A stretch of DNA of 64,000 nucleotides from Euzebya tangerina (GTDB taxonomy: Bacteria > Actinomycetota > Nitriliruptoria > Euzebyales > Euzebyaceae): contig NZ_PPDK01000001.1 of NCBI RefSeq assembly GCF_003074135.1, forward strand, positions 2,666,001 through 2,730,000, read 5' to 3'. Numbering within the stretch: the first letter of the stretch is position 1; each line of letters begins with the position of its first letter. The notes below the pieces were generated by a model. The model worked only from the letters and a program-made list of their open reading frames with translations. It did no database searches and was not told where the DNA came from. Positions 1 through 10,089 of the stretch are shown here, piece by piece. Made by a program: the position numbers and the translations under genes.

Positions 1-563
1 ATCTGGCCGTGGGGGTGGGAGAGGGTGACGCCGATCTCCTCGCCGCGGTTCTCGAACGGGAACACGTGCTCGACGGTCTCTATCTGACTGAGGTCTGCGG
101 TGCGGTCGGCCCAGGCGTCGATGACCAGTCGCGCGCTGGCCGGGGACAGTTCGCCGAAGGAGGTGTCGTGGTCGTCGGTGAAGCACACCACCTCGCAGCG
201 GCCGTTGCCGGGCAGCACGGCGTAGGGACCGTCTGGTGCGGTCTCCGCCGCCTCGGCCCCCTCCACGAATGACGGGAAGCGGTTCTCGAACACGACCACG
301 TCGTACGGCTCCGGGATCTCGGTGGGCGACCCGGGCGCGCTGGCGCACAGCGGGCAACTGGCTCGCGACGGCTTGAACGTCCGCGACTGGCGATGGGCGG
401 TGATGGCCACCCAGTCGCCGGTGCTGATGTCCAGACGACGTTCGATGCTGCTGGCCACGTCAGGGAGATCTCGCTCGTCCACGGCGGTCCGGGTCTGGGA
501 CTCGTCACGGTCGAAGTAGAACAACTCCCTGCCATCGGCCATGACGGCTTGGGTGCGCTTCAT
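1..563 (-). CDS. galT: galactose-1-phosphate uridylyltransferase, partial (5' part)
   Basis: GalT moves UMP between UDP-glucose and galactose-1-phosphate in the Leloir pathway, in the cytoplasm. 187 residues are visible and the gene runs off the left edge. The zinc-site motif CPLC lies near residue 82 and the last visible residues (183-187) are HPHGQ, the catalytic HxHxQ motif with the nucleophilic histidine. The FENR and VFVFENR-like blocks typical of the family are present just before it. ATG at 563 follows the stop of the ABC ATPase gene by 22 bases, so galT is the last visible gene of the sugar-uptake operon. This suggests the imported sugar contains or yields galactose (inference). The C-terminal half is outside the window. 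Confidence 0.93.
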   Translation of the reverse strand, partial: MKRTQAVMADGRELFYFDRDESQTRTAVDERDLPDVASSIERRLDISTGDWVAITAHRQSRTFKPSRASCPLCASAPGSPTEIPEPYDVVVFENRFPSFVEGAEAAETAPDGPYAVLPGNGRCEVVCFTDDHDTSFGELSPASARLVIDAWADRTADLSQIETVEHVFPFENRGEEIGVTLSHPHGQ

Positions 564-585: not shown

Positions 586-1743
<1,158 letters not shown>

Positions 1744-1747
1744 GGGT

Positions 1748-2239
1748 TTACTCGCCCTCCAGTGGACGTAGGAACGGAATGACGTAGGGGTAGGTCATGA
1801 GGAAGCCACGCTTGGCGCGCGACGCGGCGGAGAGGGCAAGGCTCACCCACGCGATGGTCAGGACCGCGACGGCCAGACCGAAGACGGGGAAGAGCATGAG
1901 CAGAAACGGTGTGGTCCCGGCCAACGACAGGCCGGCGAAGATGACGAGGTAGGCCACGCTCATCGTGGCTGCCGCAGCCGCTGCCCGCTTGCGGTGCCTG
2001 GTCGTCACACCGTCGGTCCCGAAGAGTCGGCCGAGCAGCATGGGCCCGAGCGGGATCGTCAGCGCAATCGGGACCAGCAGCGCTCGGCCGGTGATGGCCA
2101 GGACCACCAGCAGGGGGACGAAGCCCAGCAGGTGCTGGACGACATGTCCCCAGGTACCAACGTCGGCGATGCGGCGGCCGTACTGGTCGCCGACCGTGAT
2201 GTTCGCCTGGCGCGTGCGCTTGGTCGAGTCAGGTGTCAT
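1748..2239 (-). CDS. small membrane protein, DUF4870-like
   Basis: 163 residues with three to four hydrophobic segments (about 30-50, 52-70, 90-110 and 115-140). It ends with a basic stretch and a YPYVIPFLRP tail that resembles the end of DUF4870/Tic20-like proteins. That family assignment comes from general pattern only. The start ATG at 2239 overlaps the stop of the FG-GAP lipoprotein gene in the sequence ATGA, which indicates translational coupling. A longer in-frame reading upstream is possible but would run antisense-like, basic sequence inside the previous gene. Its placement between a surface lipoprotein and the transport ATPase suggests a membrane role in the same system. The function is unknown. 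Confidence 0.75.
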   Translation of the reverse strand: MTPDSTKRTRQANITVGDQYGRRIADVGTWGHVVQHLLGFVPLLVVLAITGRALLVPIALTIPLGPMLLGRLFGTDGVTTRHRKRAAAAAATMSVAYLVIFAGLSLAGTTPFLLMLFPVFGLAVAVLTIAWVSLALSAASRAKRGFLMTYPYVIPFLRPLEGE

Positions 2240-3891
2240 GTGCGGGTCACCGTCACCAGGTGATCGACCGGAACGTCCTCGACCTCCGACACGGCGCCGT
2301 CCGGCCAGCGGACCTCGATCTCGACGGGTTGGCTGGAATCGCCCAGCCCAACGTGCACGGTGGTCGACGGACCCGAGAGGTAGCCACGCGATGACTCCAC
2401 GGTTCGGGTGAACGCACCGCCTTCGCCGTGGACGGTGATGGTTGCGCCCAGGGCGGTGGTGTTGCGGCTGTCCACCCACTCCAGATCGATCAGCAGGCCG
2501 GCCCCCTGGCAGATCTGGTTCTCGTAGATCCGGGATGGCTCGAGGAGGTTGTTGACGACGATGTCGAGGTCGCCGTCACGATCGAGGTCGGCCATGACCA
2601 GGCCCCGCCCCTGTGCTGGGTCGTCCAGTGACCACTCGGGCGCCGGCACGAACCCGCCGCCGTGACTGCGGAAGGCCTGATTCCGTTCGACGAGAGCGGC
2701 GCCGTCCCGATCGCCGAACAGCGCGTCGGACACCATGCCGTTCACGACGTAGAGGTCCTGGAGACCGTCGTTGTCGAGGTCGCCGAACACCCCTGACCAG
2801 GACCACCCGGTCGCATGGATGCCCACGTCCCGAGCCACCTCATCGAACCCGTCTTCCCCCGCCATCTGCAGGACGTTGACCGGGTGTTGGATGTCGTCCG
2901 GCAGCGGCATGGCGGCCATCTCCTCGACGATCGGTGCGTACGCCTCACGGGTTGCCGGAGCGTCGTCCATGGGATGCATGTCGGTGCTGAACACCTCGAG
3001 GTCGCCGTCGTTGTCGACGTCGGCCGTGTCGAGGCTCATGGTGGAGTAGGACGTCTCGGAGAAGGGCTGTTCCAACCTGTAGTCGCCGTCCTCCGTGGCG
3101 ACGTACAGCTCATCAGGTGTGGCGAGGTCGTTGCCGACCAGGATGTCGGTCAGCCCGTCGCCGTTGATGTCGGCGGTGTGGACCGCCAGCGCCTGCGCCA
3201 GATTCGTCAACGGTGCAGCCGTGAATTCCTCGCCGCCACGCTCATGGCGGACGGCCCCCACCGCAGAGCCGAGCAGTTGCTGATGGCGCTGATTGAAGGT
3301 GAGTTCTGCGTTGTAGGAGCCGGTGACCAGATCGAGGTCCCCATCTCCACCCAGGTCGGCCCAGGCCATGCTGTAGGTTGCCGCCGCGACGCCGGGCAGC
3401 TCTTCGCGGGAGAAGGCGTCGGCCTCGAGTGACACGGTCGCCGTCTGGTTGCGGAAGAACACAGGGCGACCCAGACCCGTGGTCAGGACGATGTCGTTGT
3501 CACCGTCACCATCGACATCGAGGATGGCCGGCTGTCGCGTCCGGGCGTCGAGCAGCGGGATGCTGGTGAACTCCAGGTCACCCCTGTTGTGCTGGATGGT
3601 GGTGTGACCGGAGAGGTTGGCCAGGACGATGTCATCACGGCCATCTCCGTCCAGGTCGCCCACGGCCACGCCGGCGCCGGTCCCGTCGAAGGTCCCGGTC
3701 GAGTCGCCGGTGCCACGGGTGACGTGGTCGAGATCCGCGGCCACGAACTCACCCGAGCAGTCTGACTGCGCCAGTGAGTTCGTGGCCACCTGGGCGGCCA
3801 CCCGCGTTGCACCCGCATGCGCCGAGCCACAGGCACTGGCGACCACCATGAGGGCAAGGAGGGAGATCAGCTGCAAGCCGGTCATCTTCAT
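2236..3891 (-). CDS. exported lipoprotein with FG-GAP/VCBS repeats and C-terminal UnbV (ASPIC) domain
   Basis: 551 residues. The N-terminus is a lipoprotein signal with the lipobox VASAC near residue 20, so it should sit on the outer face of the membrane. At least seven calcium-binding-type repeats follow, such as GDLDGDGRDDIV, DVDGDGDNDIV and ADINGDGLTDILV, expected to form a beta-propeller. The last 90 residues match the UnbV/ASPIC pattern, with a GLGD element and a WPDG element. Family members (CRTAC1-like) are surface or secreted proteins of unclear role. It lies in the sugar ABC operon, 100 bases after the solute-binding gene, and overlaps the next gene by four bases. Glycan or surface binding that feeds the transporter is a reasonable guess, not shown. 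Confidence 0.9.
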   Translation of the reverse strand: MKMTGLQLISLLALMVVASACGSAHAGATRVAAQVATNSLAQSDCSGEFVAADLDHVTRGTGDSTGTFDGTGAGVAVGDLDGDGRDDIVLANLSGHTTIQHNRGDLEFTSIPLLDARTRQPAILDVDGDGDNDIVLTTGLGRPVFFRNQTATVSLEADAFSREELPGVAAATYSMAWADLGGDGDLDLVTGSYNAELTFNQRHQQLLGSAVGAVRHERGGEEFTAAPLTNLAQALAVHTADINGDGLTDILVGNDLATPDELYVATEDGDYRLEQPFSETSYSTMSLDTADVDNDGDLEVFSTDMHPMDDAPATREAYAPIVEEMAAMPLPDDIQHPVNVLQMAGEDGFDEVARDVGIHATGWSWSGVFGDLDNDGLQDLYVVNGMVSDALFGDRDGAALVERNQAFRSHGGGFVPAPEWSLDDPAQGRGLVMADLDRDGDLDIVVNNLLEPSRIYENQICQGAGLLIDLEWVDSRNTTALGATITVHGEGGAFTRTVESSRGYLSGPSTTVHVGLGDSSQPVEIEVRWPDGAVSEVEDVPVDHLVTVTRT

Positions 3892-3990: not shown

Positions 3991-5421
3991 TCAGCTGCCG
4001 AGGATGCTGTTCACCTGGTCGGCGACGCCGCCCAGACCGTCGGCAGCGCTGACCTCGCCACGCAGGATCTGCTGCATGACCGGGCCGACGATGTCCTCGA
4101 TCTGCGACGCAGAATCGGTGATCGGGAACAGGAACGTGGTGTCGTTCTCCACATAGGAGGTGAACGCGCTGACGTCGACGCCGTTGCTCTCATGAGCGTT
4201 CTGGGCGATCTCGGCCGAGGACGGGATGGCCGGGAAGACGACGGCGGCTTCACCGATCACGTCCTGGCAGGCCGTCGAGGCCAGATACTCGACCCACTGC
4301 CACGCCGCCTCGGGATCCTCGGCGGACTGGGTGATGGAGTCGGCCAGACCGTTGAACATCGAACGACTCTCACCGGTCGGTCCCTCGGGCAGGGGAGCGA
4401 ACTCGACGGGCACCTCGGTCTCATCGCCCGTCAGGGTGTTGATCATCCAGGAGCCGTTGGTCATCGTCGCGGCAGTGCCGTTCTGGAACAGGGTGGTACC
4501 GCCCAGGGACTCGACGTCCTCGATCGGCGTGATGAAGCCGGCCTCGATGTTGTCTGCGAACCACTGGATGGTCGCGTGCAACTCGGGGGAGTCGAAATTG
4601 GCCTGGTCACCGAACGGGTTCTCGTTCAGGGCCTGGTAGCCGTTGGAGACGGCGAAGCCGGAGAAGGTGGTCTGACCGAAGGCACCGAACGGACCCTCGA
4701 TGCCGAAGCCGTACTGGGTGACGTTCGACGGGTCGAAGTCGGGCGAGGTGCCGGTGTTGCCGTTGCCGTCGACGGACAGTTGGGCGATGAACTCTCCGAA
4801 CGAGCCGCCGTCGTCGGGGTTCCAATCCAGGTTGGCGGCGTCCTCAGTCGACAGGCCAGCCTCCTCGAGAGCGTCCGTGTTCAGCACCAGCGCGACGGTG
4901 TCGAAGTCCTTCGGAAGGCCGAAGCGGTCTCCCTCGGGGACGACCCACAGCTCGGCAAGACCCGCGAAGTACTGCTCGGTGTCGACGTCGGAGCCGTCGA
5001 TGAAGTCGTTCAGCGGCAGGAGCACGCCCGACTCGACCTGCTCGGGATAGCGGGCCAGGTGATTGGTGAAGACATCGGGAGCGGTGTCGGAGGCGAACGA
5101 CGTGGTCAGGTTGGTCCAGTAGTCACCCCAGCCGAACTGGGAGATCTCGATGTTGATGCCGGTCTCGTCGGTGAAGGCCGTGGCGCACTCCTCGTAGAAG
5201 GGCTGCTGGTTGGCGTCCCAGAGCCAGTACTCGATCGTGGCTCCGTCTCCGGCCGGAGCGTCGCCGCCGTCGTCTTCGGCGTCGTCCCCGCTGTCCGCCG
5301 CCGCGGTGTCCTCGCCGTCTGCCTCGTCTGCGTCATCGCCCGTTCTGCTGTTGCAGGCGGTCGCGAGCATCGCCAGCACGGCCAACACGGCCAGCAGGCG
5401 AAGGTACTTCATGCGATTCAT
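3991..5421 (-). CDS. sugar ABC transporter substrate-binding lipoprotein (family 1)
   Basis: 476 residues. A lipoprotein signal with lipobox LATAC near residue 23 is followed by an acidic Asp/Glu/Ala linker (about 24-60). The remainder is a family 1 extracellular solute-binding protein, with blocks such as EYWLWD near 65 and FNGLADSI near 350. It should capture sugar outside the membrane and deliver it to the two permeases encoded upstream in the same operon. An AAAGGA sequence lies nine bases before ATG 5421. A second in-frame ATG is three codons later. The exact sugar cannot be read from the sequence. A nearby galT hints at a galactoside, but this is inference. Confidence 0.93.
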   Translation of the reverse strand: MNRMKYLRLLAVLAVLAMLATACNSRTGDDADEADGEDTAAADSGDDAEDDGGDAPAGDGATIEYWLWDANQQPFYEECATAFTDETGINIEISQFGWGDYWTNLTTSFASDTAPDVFTNHLARYPEQVESGVLLPLNDFIDGSDVDTEQYFAGLAELWVVPEGDRFGLPKDFDTVALVLNTDALEEAGLSTEDAANLDWNPDDGGSFGEFIAQLSVDGNGNTGTSPDFDPSNVTQYGFGIEGPFGAFGQTTFSGFAVSNGYQALNENPFGDQANFDSPELHATIQWFADNIEAGFITPIEDVESLGGTTLFQNGTAATMTNGSWMINTLTGDETEVPVEFAPLPEGPTGESRSMFNGLADSITQSAEDPEAAWQWVEYLASTACQDVIGEAAVVFPAIPSSAEIAQNAHESNGVDVSAFTSYVENDTTFLFPITDSASQIEDIVGPVMQQILRGEVSAADGLGGVADQVNSILGS

Positions 5422-5537: not shown

Positions 5538-6479
5538 TCACTTGATGCCGGAGAACTGGATGGAGTCCACCAACCGACGAGCGGTGAAGGCGAACAGGAT
5601 GAGGACGGGCAGGGCGGCCAGCAGGGTCGCGGCCATCAGCGCGGACCAGTCGGGAGAGGTCCCCGGCTGTTGCGTGGTGAAGACCCCGAGCGCCACGGTG
5701 AGGGGCTGGACCTCGGGATCACCGGCGACCACCAGGGGCCACAGGTACTCGTTCCACGACTGCACGTAGGTGAGGACGGCGAGCGTCGTGATCTGCGGCG
5801 CGGCCATCGGCAGGATGATCTCGAAGAACGTCCGGCCATGACCGGCACCGTCGAGCAGCGCGGCCTCCTCGATCGAGCGATTGATCCCGAGGAAGAACTG
5901 ACGGAGGAAGAACACCGCAAACGGTGTCATCAGCAGGAACGGCGCCATCACACCCGGCAGCGTGTTGAGCAGGTTCAGGTCGCGGATCAGAATGACGTTG
6001 GGGATCAGGACGAAGATCGGTGGGACCATCAACCCCGCCAGGTAGAGGTTGAACAGCTTGTCCCGACCCGTGAACTTCAGCCGTGCGAACGCGTAGGCGG
6101 CCATGGCGCTGAAGGCAACCTGGAAGAAGGTGACGCAGGTCGCGATGATGATCGAGTTGCGCAGGGCGCGACCGAAGTCGAACGACCCGGTGCCACGGAA
6201 CTCCGCGGCTTCCTCGGCGGACAGCAACCCCAGGACGCGCTGGAAGTTGATCAGCGACGCATCGGGTGGCAGGAAGCTCCCGTCGCCGGACAGCAGCACA
6301 CCGTTGTTGGACAGGCCCGTCCGCAGGGCCCAGTAGAACGGGAAGATGCTGATCACGATGATGAAGATCAGGAACGTCCAGGCGGCCACTCGGCCGACTC
6401 GGGCAGCTGGCGCCGGGGAGTCGTCACCGGCCGCGCCCTCCAACTTGCCAGCCGCCTTCGGCGTGGTGTCGGTGCTCAT
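5538..6479 (-). CDS. sugar ABC transporter permease (MalG type)
   Basis: 313 residues with six predicted membrane spans. The family EAA loop appears near residue 205 as EEAALLDGAGHGRTFFEIILP, shown here across its key residues E-A-A---G---------I-LP, and it contacts the ATPase. The N-terminus is a cytoplasmic, Ala/Pro-rich tail of about 30 residues. The ATG at 6479 overlaps the stop of the MalF-type gene in ATGA, so the two permeases are translationally coupled. The C-terminus ends SIQFSGIK, typical of CUT1 inner-membrane subunits. The gene for the binding protein follows after 116 bases, a gap long enough for a processing or hairpin site, though none was identified. Confidence 0.95.
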   Translation of the reverse strand: MSTDTTPKAAGKLEGAAGDDSPAPAARVGRVAAWTFLIFIIVISIFPFYWALRTGLSNNGVLLSGDGSFLPPDASLINFQRVLGLLSAEEAAEFRGTGSFDFGRALRNSIIIATCVTFFQVAFSAMAAYAFARLKFTGRDKLFNLYLAGLMVPPIFVLIPNVILIRDLNLLNTLPGVMAPFLLMTPFAVFFLRQFFLGINRSIEEAALLDGAGHGRTFFEIILPMAAPQITTLAVLTYVQSWNEYLWPLVVAGDPEVQPLTVALGVFTTQQPGTSPDWSALMAATLLAALPVLILFAFTARRLVDSIQFSGIK

Positions 6480-7456
6480 GCGAGGTCACTCTCCCCTGCG
6501 CGCAGCAGGCGCATCTGGATCACGGTCACGACCAGCAGCAGGATCACCAGCACCACCGAGATGGCGGCGGCGTATCCCATGTCGTTGAAGTTGAAGGCGT
6601 TCTGGAAGATGTAGAGGTAGATGACCCGCGACGCGTTGGCCGGGCCACCGGGTTGACCGCTCAGGCCACCGGTCGCGACCTGGACCGTGTCGAAGACCTG
6701 GAAGGACCCGACGATGGTGAGGACCAGCACGAGGGCCAGCACCGGTCGGAGCAGCGGGATCGTGATGCTGCGGAACATCTGGGCTTCCGTCGACCCGTCC
6801 AGGGCGCCGGCCTCGTACAAGCCCTTCGGGATCGTCTGGAGACCGGCGAAGATGAGCAGTGCGGTGTAGCCCATGTGTCGCCAGGTGTTGATCCCGGCGA
6901 TCGTCGGGATGACGTTGGTGGTGTCGGTGAAGAAGTTCACCGGGCCGATGCCGAAGAAGCCGAGGAAGTCGTTGACGACCCCGAGGTTCCCGTCGAGCAT
7001 CCACAGCCACAGCAGGGCGACGATGACGTTGGGCATCAGGTAGGGGAGGAGCATGACGCCGCGGACGAAGATGGAGTTCGTCAGCCGGTCCATCATCACC
7101 GCGATCGTGACCGACAGGATGGTCTGGCTCACGATGTTGAGGAACACGTACCAGGCGGTGACCCGCATCGAGTTCCAGAACTGCGGGTCGTCGTTCAACA
7201 GCCGCTCGAAGTTGTCCAGGCCGATGAAGGAGCCCGAGTTCGCGATCAGGTTCCAGTCCGTGAACGCGATGTAGAGCCCACGCAGCCCGGGGATCAGGAA
7301 GAACGTCAGGAACCCGATCAGGCTGGGAAGCAGGAACCAGAACGCCACCCGCCACCCGGCATCGCCCTGCGTCGCCCTGAACAGGCTCTGCTTGGGTTTC
7401 TGGGGATTGGCCGCGATGGCGGCCTCCTCGCTGGCGGGTGGGGCAGTGCTACTCAT
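6476..7456 (-). CDS. sugar ABC transporter permease (MalF type)
   Basis: 326 residues with six membrane spans. It has the MalF-like ALDGSTEAQMFRSITIPLL loop near residue 205, the EAA-equivalent ATPase contact. I chose ATG 7456 (MSSTAPPAS) because it overlaps the end of the LacI-type regulator gene by eight bases and begins a normal cytoplasmic tail. A much longer open frame upstream is read from inside the regulator gene and is not convincing. Coupling to both neighbours shows that the regulator and transporter genes are expressed as one unit. It should form the membrane channel with the MalG-type subunit. Confidence 0.93.
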   Translation of the reverse strand: MSSTAPPASEEAAIAANPQKPKQSLFRATQGDAGWRVAFWFLLPSLIGFLTFFLIPGLRGLYIAFTDWNLIANSGSFIGLDNFERLLNDDPQFWNSMRVTAWYVFLNIVSQTILSVTIAVMMDRLTNSIFVRGVMLLPYLMPNVIVALLWLWMLDGNLGVVNDFLGFFGIGPVNFFTDTTNVIPTIAGINTWRHMGYTALLIFAGLQTIPKGLYEAGALDGSTEAQMFRSITIPLLRPVLALVLVLTIVGSFQVFDTVQVATGGLSGQPGGPANASRVIYLYIFQNAFNFNDMGYAAAISVVLVILLLVVTVIQMRLLRAGESDLA

Positions 7457-8543
7457 GGGTGGCCTCCACGTCTGGCTCCTGGCGGGTCTCGTCATGGCTG
7501 GCGGTTGGGACGCTGTGGGCTCGGCGAGACGACTCGCGGACGATGAGGTCACAGCCGAGGACCGGAACCGTGGCGCTTGGTGGCTCCTCGGCGCCGCTCC
7601 CGGCCCGCCGCTCGATGAGTTCGAGAAGCCGAGCCACGGCGGTCTGACCCAGGCGCTCCCGGTCGATTCGCACCGTGCTGAGCATGGGGCTGACCAGGCT
7701 TGCCATGCGGATGTCATCGAACCCGACGATCGCCAGGTCGTCGGGGACCACCAGACCCGCGGCCTGGGCGGCCCGCATCGCGCCGATGGCCATGAGGTCG
7801 TTGTAGGCGAAGACGCCGGTCGGCCGTGGCGGACTGGATAGCAGTGCCGCCATGCCGGCCGCGCCGCCGTCCACGGTCGCTTCCTCGTAGACGATGCGGG
7901 TGCGGTCGCCCAGGCCGGCCAACCGCATCTCTTCGGCGTAGCCCCGGTCGCGGCCGCGGCTGCGCTCAGGCGACTGGACGTTGGAGATCATCGCGATGGC
8001 GCGATGTCCCTCCTCGAGGAGGTGGCGCACGGCCGCTCGAGCCCCACCCTCGAGGTCGTTGCGGATGGACGTGAGATTCTCCGCGGGGCCGTCCTGATCG
8101 TCGATCAGCACCATCGGCAAGCCCTCTCTGGCATGCTGCAGGACGTCACGCCGCTGTCCGTCAGCCGCGAACATGATCGTCCCGTCCACGCCTCGGGCCC
8201 GGAACGAGGCCAGGATCTGGCTCTCGGTCTCAGCTGCCTTCTGCGTCGACGCCAGGATCAGCGTGTGCCCGGACTTGCTGGCGGTCTGTTGCACGCTCTG
8301 CGCGAGGGCGGGGAAGAAGGGATCTGTCAAGTCGGTGACGATCAGACCGATCGTGTTGCTCCGGTTCGCTCGCAGGCCCCGGGCCAGCATGTTGGTCTGG
8401 TAGTTCATCCTCTCGACGGTCTCGAGCACCCGCTTGCGGGTTGCGTCCGACAGGCCCGGTTCGCCGTTGACGGCGCGGGACACGGTGCGCGCAGAGACGC
8501 CGACAGCTGCCGCCACGTCATGCAGCGTGGTGTTCCGTGGCAT
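7449..8543 (-). CDS. LacI-family transcriptional regulator
   Basis: 364 residues. An N-terminal LacI helix-turn-helix (TLHDVAAAVGVSARTVSRAV, about residues 5-24) is followed by the hinge helix and a periplasmic-binding-protein-like sugar sensor domain. The start at 8543 (MPRNTTLHD) is preceded by GAAGGAG with good spacing. An upstream in-frame ATG at 8570 is less likely. It is the first gene of the sugar-uptake operon, so it should repress its own transcription together with the transporter genes. Two abutting perfect palindromes 48 bases upstream, just after the -10 region, are the likely operators. The inducing sugar is unknown. Confidence 0.94.
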   Translation of the reverse strand: MPRNTTLHDVAAAVGVSARTVSRAVNGEPGLSDATRKRVLETVERMNYQTNMLARGLRANRSNTIGLIVTDLTDPFFPALAQSVQQTASKSGHTLILASTQKAAETESQILASFRARGVDGTIMFAADGQRRDVLQHAREGLPMVLIDDQDGPAENLTSIRNDLEGGARAAVRHLLEEGHRAIAMISNVQSPERSRGRDRGYAEEMRLAGLGDRTRIVYEEATVDGGAAGMAALLSSPPRPTGVFAYNDLMAIGAMRAAQAAGLVVPDDLAIVGFDDIRMASLVSPMLSTVRIDRERLGQTAVARLLELIERRAGSGAEEPPSATVPVLGCDLIVRESSRRAHSVPTASHDETRQEPDVEATHE

Positions 8544-8590
8544 CTGGCGGCTCCTTCGCGTCTCGATCACCGGAGAGGCGGTTCTGTTAC

Positions 8591-8614
8591 GTCAACGTTG
8601 ACGTCAACGTTGAC
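8591..8614. promoter_or_regulatory. tandem LacI-type operator, two abutting palindromes
   Basis: The 12-base perfect palindrome GTCAACGTTGAC occurs twice in a row, at 8591-8602 and 8603-8614. The central CG step and AACGTT core are typical of LacI/GalR-family operators. The pair sits directly downstream of the putative -10 element of the operon headed by the lacI-type gene, the usual position for repression. Twelve-base spacing places the two sites close to one helical turn apart, so two dimers could bind side by side. Confidence 0.8.
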
Positions 8615-8618
8615 GTTG

Positions 8619-8648
8619 GTTGTAGACCGTTCAGCCTCGGCGTGTCAA
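8619..8648 (-). promoter_or_regulatory. sigma70-type promoter of the sugar-uptake operon
   Basis: On the minus strand a perfect TTGACA -35 box (8648-8643) is followed after 18 bases by TACAAC (8624-8619), four of six matches to TATAAT. The operator palindromes begin five bases further on. The start of transcription would fall inside the first palindrome. Confidence 0.65.
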
Positions 8649-8682
8649 GGCTTAATCAAGAATTCCCTGGGTTCCGGACGGC

Positions 8683-10089
8683 CTACCGCAACGCCATCTT
8701 CCCTGGGTTCAGGATGCCGTCGGGGTCCAGTGCGTCCTTGATGCGCTGCTGGATCTGAATCGATGCGCCGCCGACCTCGCGCTCGAGCCAGGAGTCCTTC
8801 AGAACCCCGACGCCATGCTCACCGGTGATGGTGCCGCCCAGATCGAGTGCCGCGTCCAGGATGTCGTCGAAGGCGGCCATCGCCCGTCCCTTCTCGTCGG
8901 CATCGTTCGCGCTCCAGCACAAGGTCGGGTGCATGTTGCCGTCGCCGGCGTGGCCGTAGCTGTAGATGTCGACGCCTCGCCGCCGGGCGACGGCCTCCGT
9001 GCGACTGATGAGCTCCGGCACCCGCGAACGGGTGACTCCCACGTCCTCCAGCAGTGCCACCCCGCGCTGCTCGATCGCCGGCAGGGCCATGCGTCGCGCC
9101 TGGAGCAGTGCCTCACCTTCGTCGGGCTCGTCCGTTCGGGCGACGTAACTTGCCCCGTGGGTCTCGCACGCCTTCTCGATCGCGGCGATGTGGTCGGCCC
9201 GGGCCGGGAAGTCCAGGTCGGTCTGGATCAGCAGCAGCGCCGCCGCATCGGTGTCGAGGTCCATGCGTTGCCAGGCCTCCACCGCTCCGATGGTGGCCTT
9301 GTCCATGATCTCGAGCAGGGAGGGAACGGCTCCCTGGCAGACTGCTCCAACCGCCCGTCCGGCGTCCGCGATGTCGTCGAAGAACGCGACGAGGGTCGAC
9401 GCGGCCGGTGGTCTGGGGCAGATCCGGAGGGTGGCCTGCGTCACGACGCCGAGCGTCCCTTCGCTGCCGACGAGCAGGGAGGTGAGGTCGTAGCCCGCGA
9501 CGCTCTTGATGGTCCGGGCGCCGGTGGAGATGAGGGTCCCGTCCGCCATCACGACCTCGAGGCTCGCGACCCAGTCACGGGTGACGCCGTACTTCACGCA
9601 GCACAGACCTCCGGCGTTGGTGGCGATGTTGCCGCCGATGGAGCAGAAGGCCATCGAGGCCGGGTCCGGCGGATACCAGAAGCCGTCCTCGGCCAGTTGG
9701 TGCTTGAGCGCCAGGTTCATGATCCCCGGCTCCACCACGCACAGGCGGTCGACCGGGTCGAGGTCGACCACCGACCGCATGTGCTCCAGCGACAGGATCA
9801 GGCCACCGTCGATGGCGTTCGCGCCGCCGTGCAGTCCGGCTCCGGCACCACGGGGCACCACCGGCACCGACCGTCGGGACGCGGTCCGCATCACGGTCTG
9901 GACCTCGCTGGTCGACCGGGCACGGATCACCGCGGCTGGCGTTCCGGCTGGAAGGTCTGGCGCTCGATCCATCCGATAGGACTCGAGGATGTCGGGGTCG
10001 GTCAGGACACGACCGCGCGGCAGGACCGCGGTCAGGTCATCGACGGCTGCCGCGGAGCCAGCGGGCACGGGGGGCGACACTCGGGTCAT
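8683..10089 (-). CDS. glcD: FAD-linked oxidase, GlcD/D-lactate dehydrogenase type
   Basis: 468 residues. The N-terminal FAD-binding PCMH domain has PRGAGAGLHGGA near residue 80 and NAGGLCCVKYG near 150. The C-terminal FAD-oxidase domain has the conserved YGHAGDGNMHP near 365 and GEHGVGVLK near 415. The family oxidises 2-hydroxy acids such as glycolate or D-lactate and passes electrons to a quinone, cytochrome or partner subunit. No GlcE or GlcF partner is visible nearby. ATG 10089 is supported by a TACGCT box six bases upstream. A longer upstream frame runs antisense to the FNT gene and is rejected. The exact substrate is not resolved. Confidence 0.88.
   Translation of the reverse strand: MTRVSPPVPAGSAAAVDDLTAVLPRGRVLTDPDILESYRMDRAPDLPAGTPAAVIRARSTSEVQTVMRTASRRSVPVVPRGAGAGLHGGANAIDGGLILSLEHMRSVVDLDPVDRLCVVEPGIMNLALKHQLAEDGFWYPPDPASMAFCSIGGNIATNAGGLCCVKYGVTRDWVASLEVVMADGTLISTGARTIKSVAGYDLTSLLVGSEGTLGVVTQATLRICPRPPAASTLVAFFDDIADAGRAVGAVCQGAVPSLLEIMDKATIGAVEAWQRMDLDTDAAALLLIQTDLDFPARADHIAAIEKACETHGASYVARTDEPDEGEALLQARRMALPAIEQRGVALLEDVGVTRSRVPELISRTEAVARRRGVDIYSYGHAGDGNMHPTLCWSANDADEKGRAMAAFDDILDAALDLGGTITGEHGVGVLKDSWLEREVGGASIQIQQRIKDALDPDGILNPGKMALR

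Follow-up and report, generated by a model that had tools for sequence, protein, structure and literature searches.

What does a LacI-family repressor do with two palindromes that abut without a gap in front of its own gene? The question is raised by a stretch of 64,000 nucleotides from Euzebya tangerina (the window), in which the 12-mer GTCAACGTTGAC occurs twice on the minus strand, head to tail and with no gap, at 8591-8614 (exact matches); from the middle of the pair it is about 60 bp to the ATG (8543) of a LacI-family regulator gene. An earlier note on this DNA had read the element as two perfect palindromes of LacI type just after a -10 box, bound cooperatively by two dimers, with strong autorepression.

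Architecture of the element

The physical description was borne out. Both exact copies are present, at 8591-8602 and 8603-8614; four bases separate TACAAC from the first copy, all on the minus strand, a point on which the earlier note was silent; and a CG-centred palindrome of LacI type does lie upstream of a LacI-family gene (PF00356 above cut-off). The features are as follows.

8643..8648, minus strand: -35-like box TTGACA, part of the best pair in the intergenic stretch (10/12 consensus positions)
8619..8624, minus strand: -10-like box TACAAC, 4/6 consensus, from the sequence; not passed by a strict promoter scan
8603..8614, minus strand: putative operator copy nearer the promoter, GTCAACGTTGAC, exact match
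8591..8602, minus strand: putative operator copy nearer the gene, GTCAACGTTGAC, exact match
8589..8616, minus strand: 28-bp perfect dyad ACGTCAACGTTGACGTCAACGTTGACGT, an inverted repeat made of two overlapping 16-mer putative operators ACGTCAACGTTGACGT, both exact, with ACGT in common
8551..8556, minus strand: ribosome-binding-like AAGGAG, 7 nt before the ATG, from the sequence
7449..8543, minus strand: LacI-family regulator, 364 aa from ATG 8543 (PF00356, Peripla_BP_3)

Along the minus strand, TTGACA (8648-8643) is followed by an 18-bp spacer, TACAAC (8624-8619), four bases and then the palindromes. When the 139-bp intergenic stretch was shuffled 2000 times (Markov), 0.25% of the shuffles reached the 10 of 12 consensus positions that this pair matches. 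A promoter scan of 7001-9000 under stricter rules found no site: it requires the second box to end in T, and the last base of TACAAC is C. Farther upstream, at 8663-8678 and 8699-8714 (36 bp apart), the 16-nt sequence TTCCCTGGGTTCMGGA stands as a direct repeat that spans the end of the upstream GlcD-like gene.

An inverted-repeat search recovered the dyad as a perfect repeat of 8589-8602 with 8603-8616, with 14-nt arms and zero gap. It has three CG centres, two in AACGTT and the central one in GACGTC. LacI-family operators are described as even palindromes of 16-22 nt with a central CG, mostly 30-140 bp before the start codon, by Ravcheev et al. 2014 (PMC4052901), and the two ACGTCAACGTTGACGT 16-mers have all of these properties. 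Matches to the 12-mer in the window exceed chance: ten were found at up to two mismatches, against a shuffle mean of 2.80 and a largest value of 8 in 100 shuffles. The exact tandem 24-mer had no match in the viral contigs searched. At up to three mismatches the tandem pattern was found in 2 of 150 genomes, one being the organism's own; the other match (G060, L076) lies within a frame read as a binding protein and was taken as chance.

The regulator and its gene run

The regulator, for which a longer listed frame begins at GTG 8570, combines an N-terminal LacI helix-turn-helix (PF00356, 52.5 bits against a cut-off of 27) with a Peripla_BP_3 effector domain (126.4 bits against a cut-off of 26.5, 1.5e-36). 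It passed no NCBIfam equivalog cut-off among the 19 families listed, the best being RbsR (210.2 bits against a cut-off of 382). Its identity to the best-scoring match in 149 relatives is 39%, and across 28 loci of named genomes it ranges from 30 to 41%. The nearest solved relatives in the PDB are CcpA (1zvv, 8.1e-52) and PurR (about 1e-43, 1qpz group). CcpA is a global regulator and PurR a purine regulator, whereas the protein here heads a galactoside-type gene run. The genes that follow it are listed below.

6476..7456, minus strand: ABC sugar permease, its ATG at 7456 overlapping the end of the regulator gene (BPD_transp_1, 6.7e-12)
5538..6479, minus strand: second ABC sugar permease (BPD_transp_1, 9e-18)
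3991..5421, minus strand: sugar-binding protein (SBP_bac_8, 7.3e-23)
2236..3891, minus strand: FG-GAP / ASPIC-UnbV repeat protein (FG-GAP_3, 1.5e-38; UnbV_ASPIC, 2e-18)
586..1743, minus strand: UgpC/MalK-type ABC ATPase (NF008653, 472 bits against a cut-off of 432)
1..563, minus strand: galT, extending past the window start (TIGR00209 above cut-off in locus L078)

Beyond the window, galT is followed by galK (TIGR00131 above cut-off in L078) and then by a GH36-type alpha-galactosidase gene (1zy9, 8.5e-68; Pfam GH31, 4.7e-12; Melibiase barely above cut-off). The first permease begins, at 7456, before the regulator gene has ended, so the regulator appears as the first gene of an apparent single operon and, from orientation and spacing, the whole run from regulator through alpha-galactosidase looks like one operon. 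The binding-protein gene is bordered by gaps of about 100 bp on both sides, and a small frame with no Pfam match stands between the FG-GAP/ASPIC and ATPase genes. The FG-GAP/ASPIC-UnbV gene (2236-3891) itself sits within the sugar-transport run, between binding protein and ATPase. Outside the window, a VCPO-type (vanadium haloperoxidase-like) frame (PF22778, L078:4819-6858) lies at the end of the alpha-galactosidase gene, in convergent orientation.

These genes make galactose or an alpha-galactoside the probable sugar of the regulator. In Bifidobacterium, RafR and MsmR1 are LacI-family regulators. Both are listed for raffinose and alpha-galactosides in PMC4746261, and their likeness to the window regulator is one of probable sugar.

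Occurrence in the genome and in relatives

The exact 12-mer occurs at three places in the 4.78-Mb genome, two of them the window copies, and the reversed control pattern at one. The third copy, at G000:C1:622568-622579, lies upstream of genes for a binding protein and two permeases, its centre about 134 bp before the ATG. Thus the search that the earlier note had proposed for further regulon members returned one more exact locus, upstream of a second sugar transporter, and the palindrome, which the note had allowed might prove common genome-wide and so refute it, is rare for exact and one-mismatch matches. Since one 12-mer alone stands at the second locus, the unit would seem to be the AACGTT-centred 12-mer, with doubling peculiar to the promoter of the regulator itself. 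This single 12-mer precedes the best -35-like box of that locus, an arrangement unusual for a simple blocker, and one that counts against the operator explanation. A GH13 enzyme gene 686 bp beyond the transporter genes may be a separate unit. The closest of the genome's nine LacI-type genes is about 40 kb away, and the 19-kb stretch around the second locus holds none of the seven places in the genome that match the window ATPase at 1e-40.

The 12-mer has 17 one-mismatch places, every one of them within an open frame and most showing codon-position GC of coding type; the seven two-mismatch places of the 16-mer are likewise in open frames. The test has limited force, since the window operator too is covered by a frame (8004-8741, plus strand), and that frame is spurious. 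With three mismatches allowed, the 16-mer matches at 103 places and its reversed control at 21; those with up to two mismatches were the ones inspected. CG-centred palindromes were found within 400 bp upstream of seven of the nine LacI-type genes. GTCAACGTTGAC occurs only before the window regulator and was not found upstream of the other eight; the palindromes listed before other LacI-type genes differ (for example TTGAGAGCGCTCTCAA or TTGGAACGTTCCAA).

The first permease has matches at 1e-70 in 2 of the 65 other genomes of the class, G044 and G061, both of one genus. The clusters have the same order (LacI-type gene, permease, permease, binding protein) at 52-63% identity; the regulators are only 36-38% identical to that of the window. 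G061 has the LacI-type gene, two permeases, the binding protein and a GH36 relative; in G044 the regulator and two permeases are followed by a binding-protein gene that the end of the contig piece cuts short after its start. Directly before its regulator G044 carries a single GTGAACGTTCAC, which differs by one base per half-site; at the aligned place in G061, which reads GTGAGTGTTCCC, there is no clear palindrome. One of the two relatives thus supports, by its sequence, the reading of a palindromic operator here with AACGTT at its core. Doubling, absent from both syntenic relatives, is on this comparison not a fixed feature of the system. What the operator reading gains from G044 offsets what the doubled-site reading loses, so the odds of the readings are unchanged. 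A homologous alpha-galactosidase is present in 26 of 66 genomes, our organism's included; in 16 alpha-galactosidase stretches, several of which end at contig ends and with G061 outside the set, no match to the regulator at 1e-8 was found.

Spacing of palindromes before LacI-type genes

We surveyed regions upstream of LacI-type genes for CG-centred palindromes with at least five of six arm pairs, using first-order Markov samples as shuffles. Loci were taken for their best family or protein scores rather than at random; some are orthologues, and not all are independent. In an exploratory set of 111 loci, 107 were used (L017 was too short, L038 and L152 lacked an N-terminal match and L180 was a duplicate). 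Palindromes 12 bp apart occurred in 9 of these 107 regions, the window included, against a shuffle mean of 0.40. The 6-bp spacing, also in 9 of 107, is largely the by-product dyad, and every other spacing up to 40 was found in at most two regions. For a further set the thresholds were fixed beforehand and the gene was placed by coordinates; its 70 loci gave 64 regions after six duplicates were dropped, with L224, which is misplaced, left in. Here spacing 12 occurred in 5 of 64 (shuffle mean 0.11, largest value 2 of 200 shuffles) and spacing 6 likewise in 5. With the gene located by motif instead, the count at spacing 12 was 5 of 48 with 0.10 expected (18 loci lost, four duplicates dropped). 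In both sets spacing 12 was commoner than spacing 13 (9 vs 2 of 107; 5 vs 2 of 64). The survey is small, and it supports a preference of LacI-type regions for 12-bp spacing.

Four of the cases (L141, L146, L166 and L177) belong to one family in three genera, their clusters also containing ABC and ribokinase genes, and L229 carries 28 letters identical to those of L141. Like the window element, these RbsR-like operators and that of L067 consist of two abutting 12-mers at spacing 12 before the regulator gene; they differ in half-site (GTAAAC vs GTCAAC) and in setting (ribose-type vs galactoside genes). Ribokinase is above cut-off in three of the five RbsR-like clusters and just short of it in two, and the three regulators scanned pass none. 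Half-sites other than the window's at spacing 12 are GTAAAC, GTTAGC (L231), GGAAAC (L023) and GCAAAC (L198). The spacing-12 cases of L147 and L164, with middle dyads of only two and three of six pairs, look like chance. L023 (a Thermotogae bacterium) and L248 each have three abutting 12-bp units upstream of a LacI-type gene, the third of L023 being imperfect. In L231 the perfect 12-mers that abut before a LacI-type gene are quite unlike that of the window: GTTAGCGCTAAC, twice over.

For LacI sites, Ravcheev et al. 2014 report spacing peaks at 13, 22 and 32 bp; in 110 operons they describe sites that overlap at a distance of about 13 bp, and they cite E. coli gntKU (GntR) as a functional example (PMC4052901). 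As in their overlapping class, two overlapping palindromes, in the window putative sites of one LacI-family regulator, lie upstream of a sugar operon. The spacing is 12 bp in the window and about 13 bp in their class (E. coli gntK, counted on its sequence, is at 13), and the abutting copies of the window, unlike that class as far as it is described there, form a third perfect CG-centred dyad in the middle. The window element looks like a perfect 12-bp version of a known overlapping LacI class and is ordinary in kind. The literature searched held no experiment on these operator letters, on overlapping footprinted palindromes or on 12-bp half-site operators, and for the overlapping gntKU sites no source beyond PMC4052901.

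Discussion

The element is very probably the operator of the adjacent regulator, with autorepression. The palindrome is CG-centred, lies upstream of a LacI gene, is rare and is absent before the other eight LacI-type genes, and these properties make autorepression likely; the syntenic cluster of G044, with its single GTGAACGTTCAC directly before the regulator, also favours the operator reading. Autorepression as such is therefore retained as likely, on position, rarity and regulator family; it may be strong, as the earlier note proposed. Counted against the operator explanation are that the doubled site is not conserved and that looser 16-mer matches are many. Taken as a whole, the proposal that the 28-bp element is a putative operator of the adjacent regulator, with autorepression, two mutually exclusive registers and control of the second locus, is one that we consider probable. 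With no inducer present (the likely one being galactose or an alpha-galactoside), a dimer of the repressor would span the expected transcription start, at about 8612 as derived from the -10 box, and would stop RNA polymerase. Repression would silence the regulator's own gene together with the transporter, galT, galK and alpha-galactosidase genes downstream. Also under the regulator's control would be the sugar transporter of the second locus (G000:C1:622568) and, perhaps, the GH13 glycosidase gene that follows it.

The cooperative binding by two dimers that the earlier note had inferred is not supported. At 12-bp spacing the inner half-sites coincide in the same groove, and the distance is neither of those, 22 and 32 bp, that are taken as cooperative for LacI proteins (PMC4052901). 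Since 12 bp separate the centres, both inner half-sites fall on the same few bp and two canonical dimers should exclude each other; for this reason we read the element as two registers rather than as a platform for side-by-side dimers. The two copies would then be overlapping registers with a common middle half-site, one dimer sitting in either register at a time, and the presence of two registers would raise the likelihood that the start is covered. That two dimers occupy both copies at once, cooperatively and with very tight autorepression, is unlikely, though it has a real chance of being correct: both copies are perfect, overlapping sites are argued to be functional in PMC4052901, and slightly changed versions of both copies are preserved in the ribose-type operons of three genera, which could mean that both are occupied. 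Against it stand the placement of the inner half-sites on the same major-groove segment, the lack of doubling in both syntenic relatives and the statement in PMC4052901 that dimers so spaced cannot interact in known structures. The paper further states that the seven bp nearest the site centre are contacted, that overlapping sites have a specific-contact zone in common, and that known structures do not explain such sites.

Two further readings concern what acts on the palindrome. The adjacent protein's binding to it is a prediction, so the site might belong to another regulator; this is very unlikely, given that CG-centred AACGTT cores before the LacI gene itself fit the family as described in PMC4052901 and that the palindromes before the genome's other LacI-type genes differ. 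Scarcely probable at all is that the palindrome works as RNA, a 5' message hairpin acting on translation or stability. The predicted leader does give a 10-bp stem with a 4-nt loop, but the fold is weak (z-score -1.79; 12 of 200 shuffles fold equally well or better), 7001-9000 contains no terminator-like site and, at the second locus, the 12-mer precedes the best promoter-like pair.

There is also a small chance that abutting 12-bp operators form a distinct class of the LacI family. Such a class would be marked by a CG-centred dyad at the junction, a common middle half-site, repeated origin with different half-sites (GTCAAC, GTAAAC, GTTAGC, GGAAAC and others) and a binding mode unseen in known structures, for example two interlocked dimers on one DNA segment or repressor chains on three-unit arrays (L023, L248).

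Under the preferred reading, that of one operator with two exclusive registers, an unstudied regulator of actinobacterial type gains a candidate operator and a small regulon, along with a likely sugar. The element would also provide a clean, perfect test case for a question raised in PMC4052901, namely in what way overlapping sites serve LacI-family dimers when known structures bar their joint filling.
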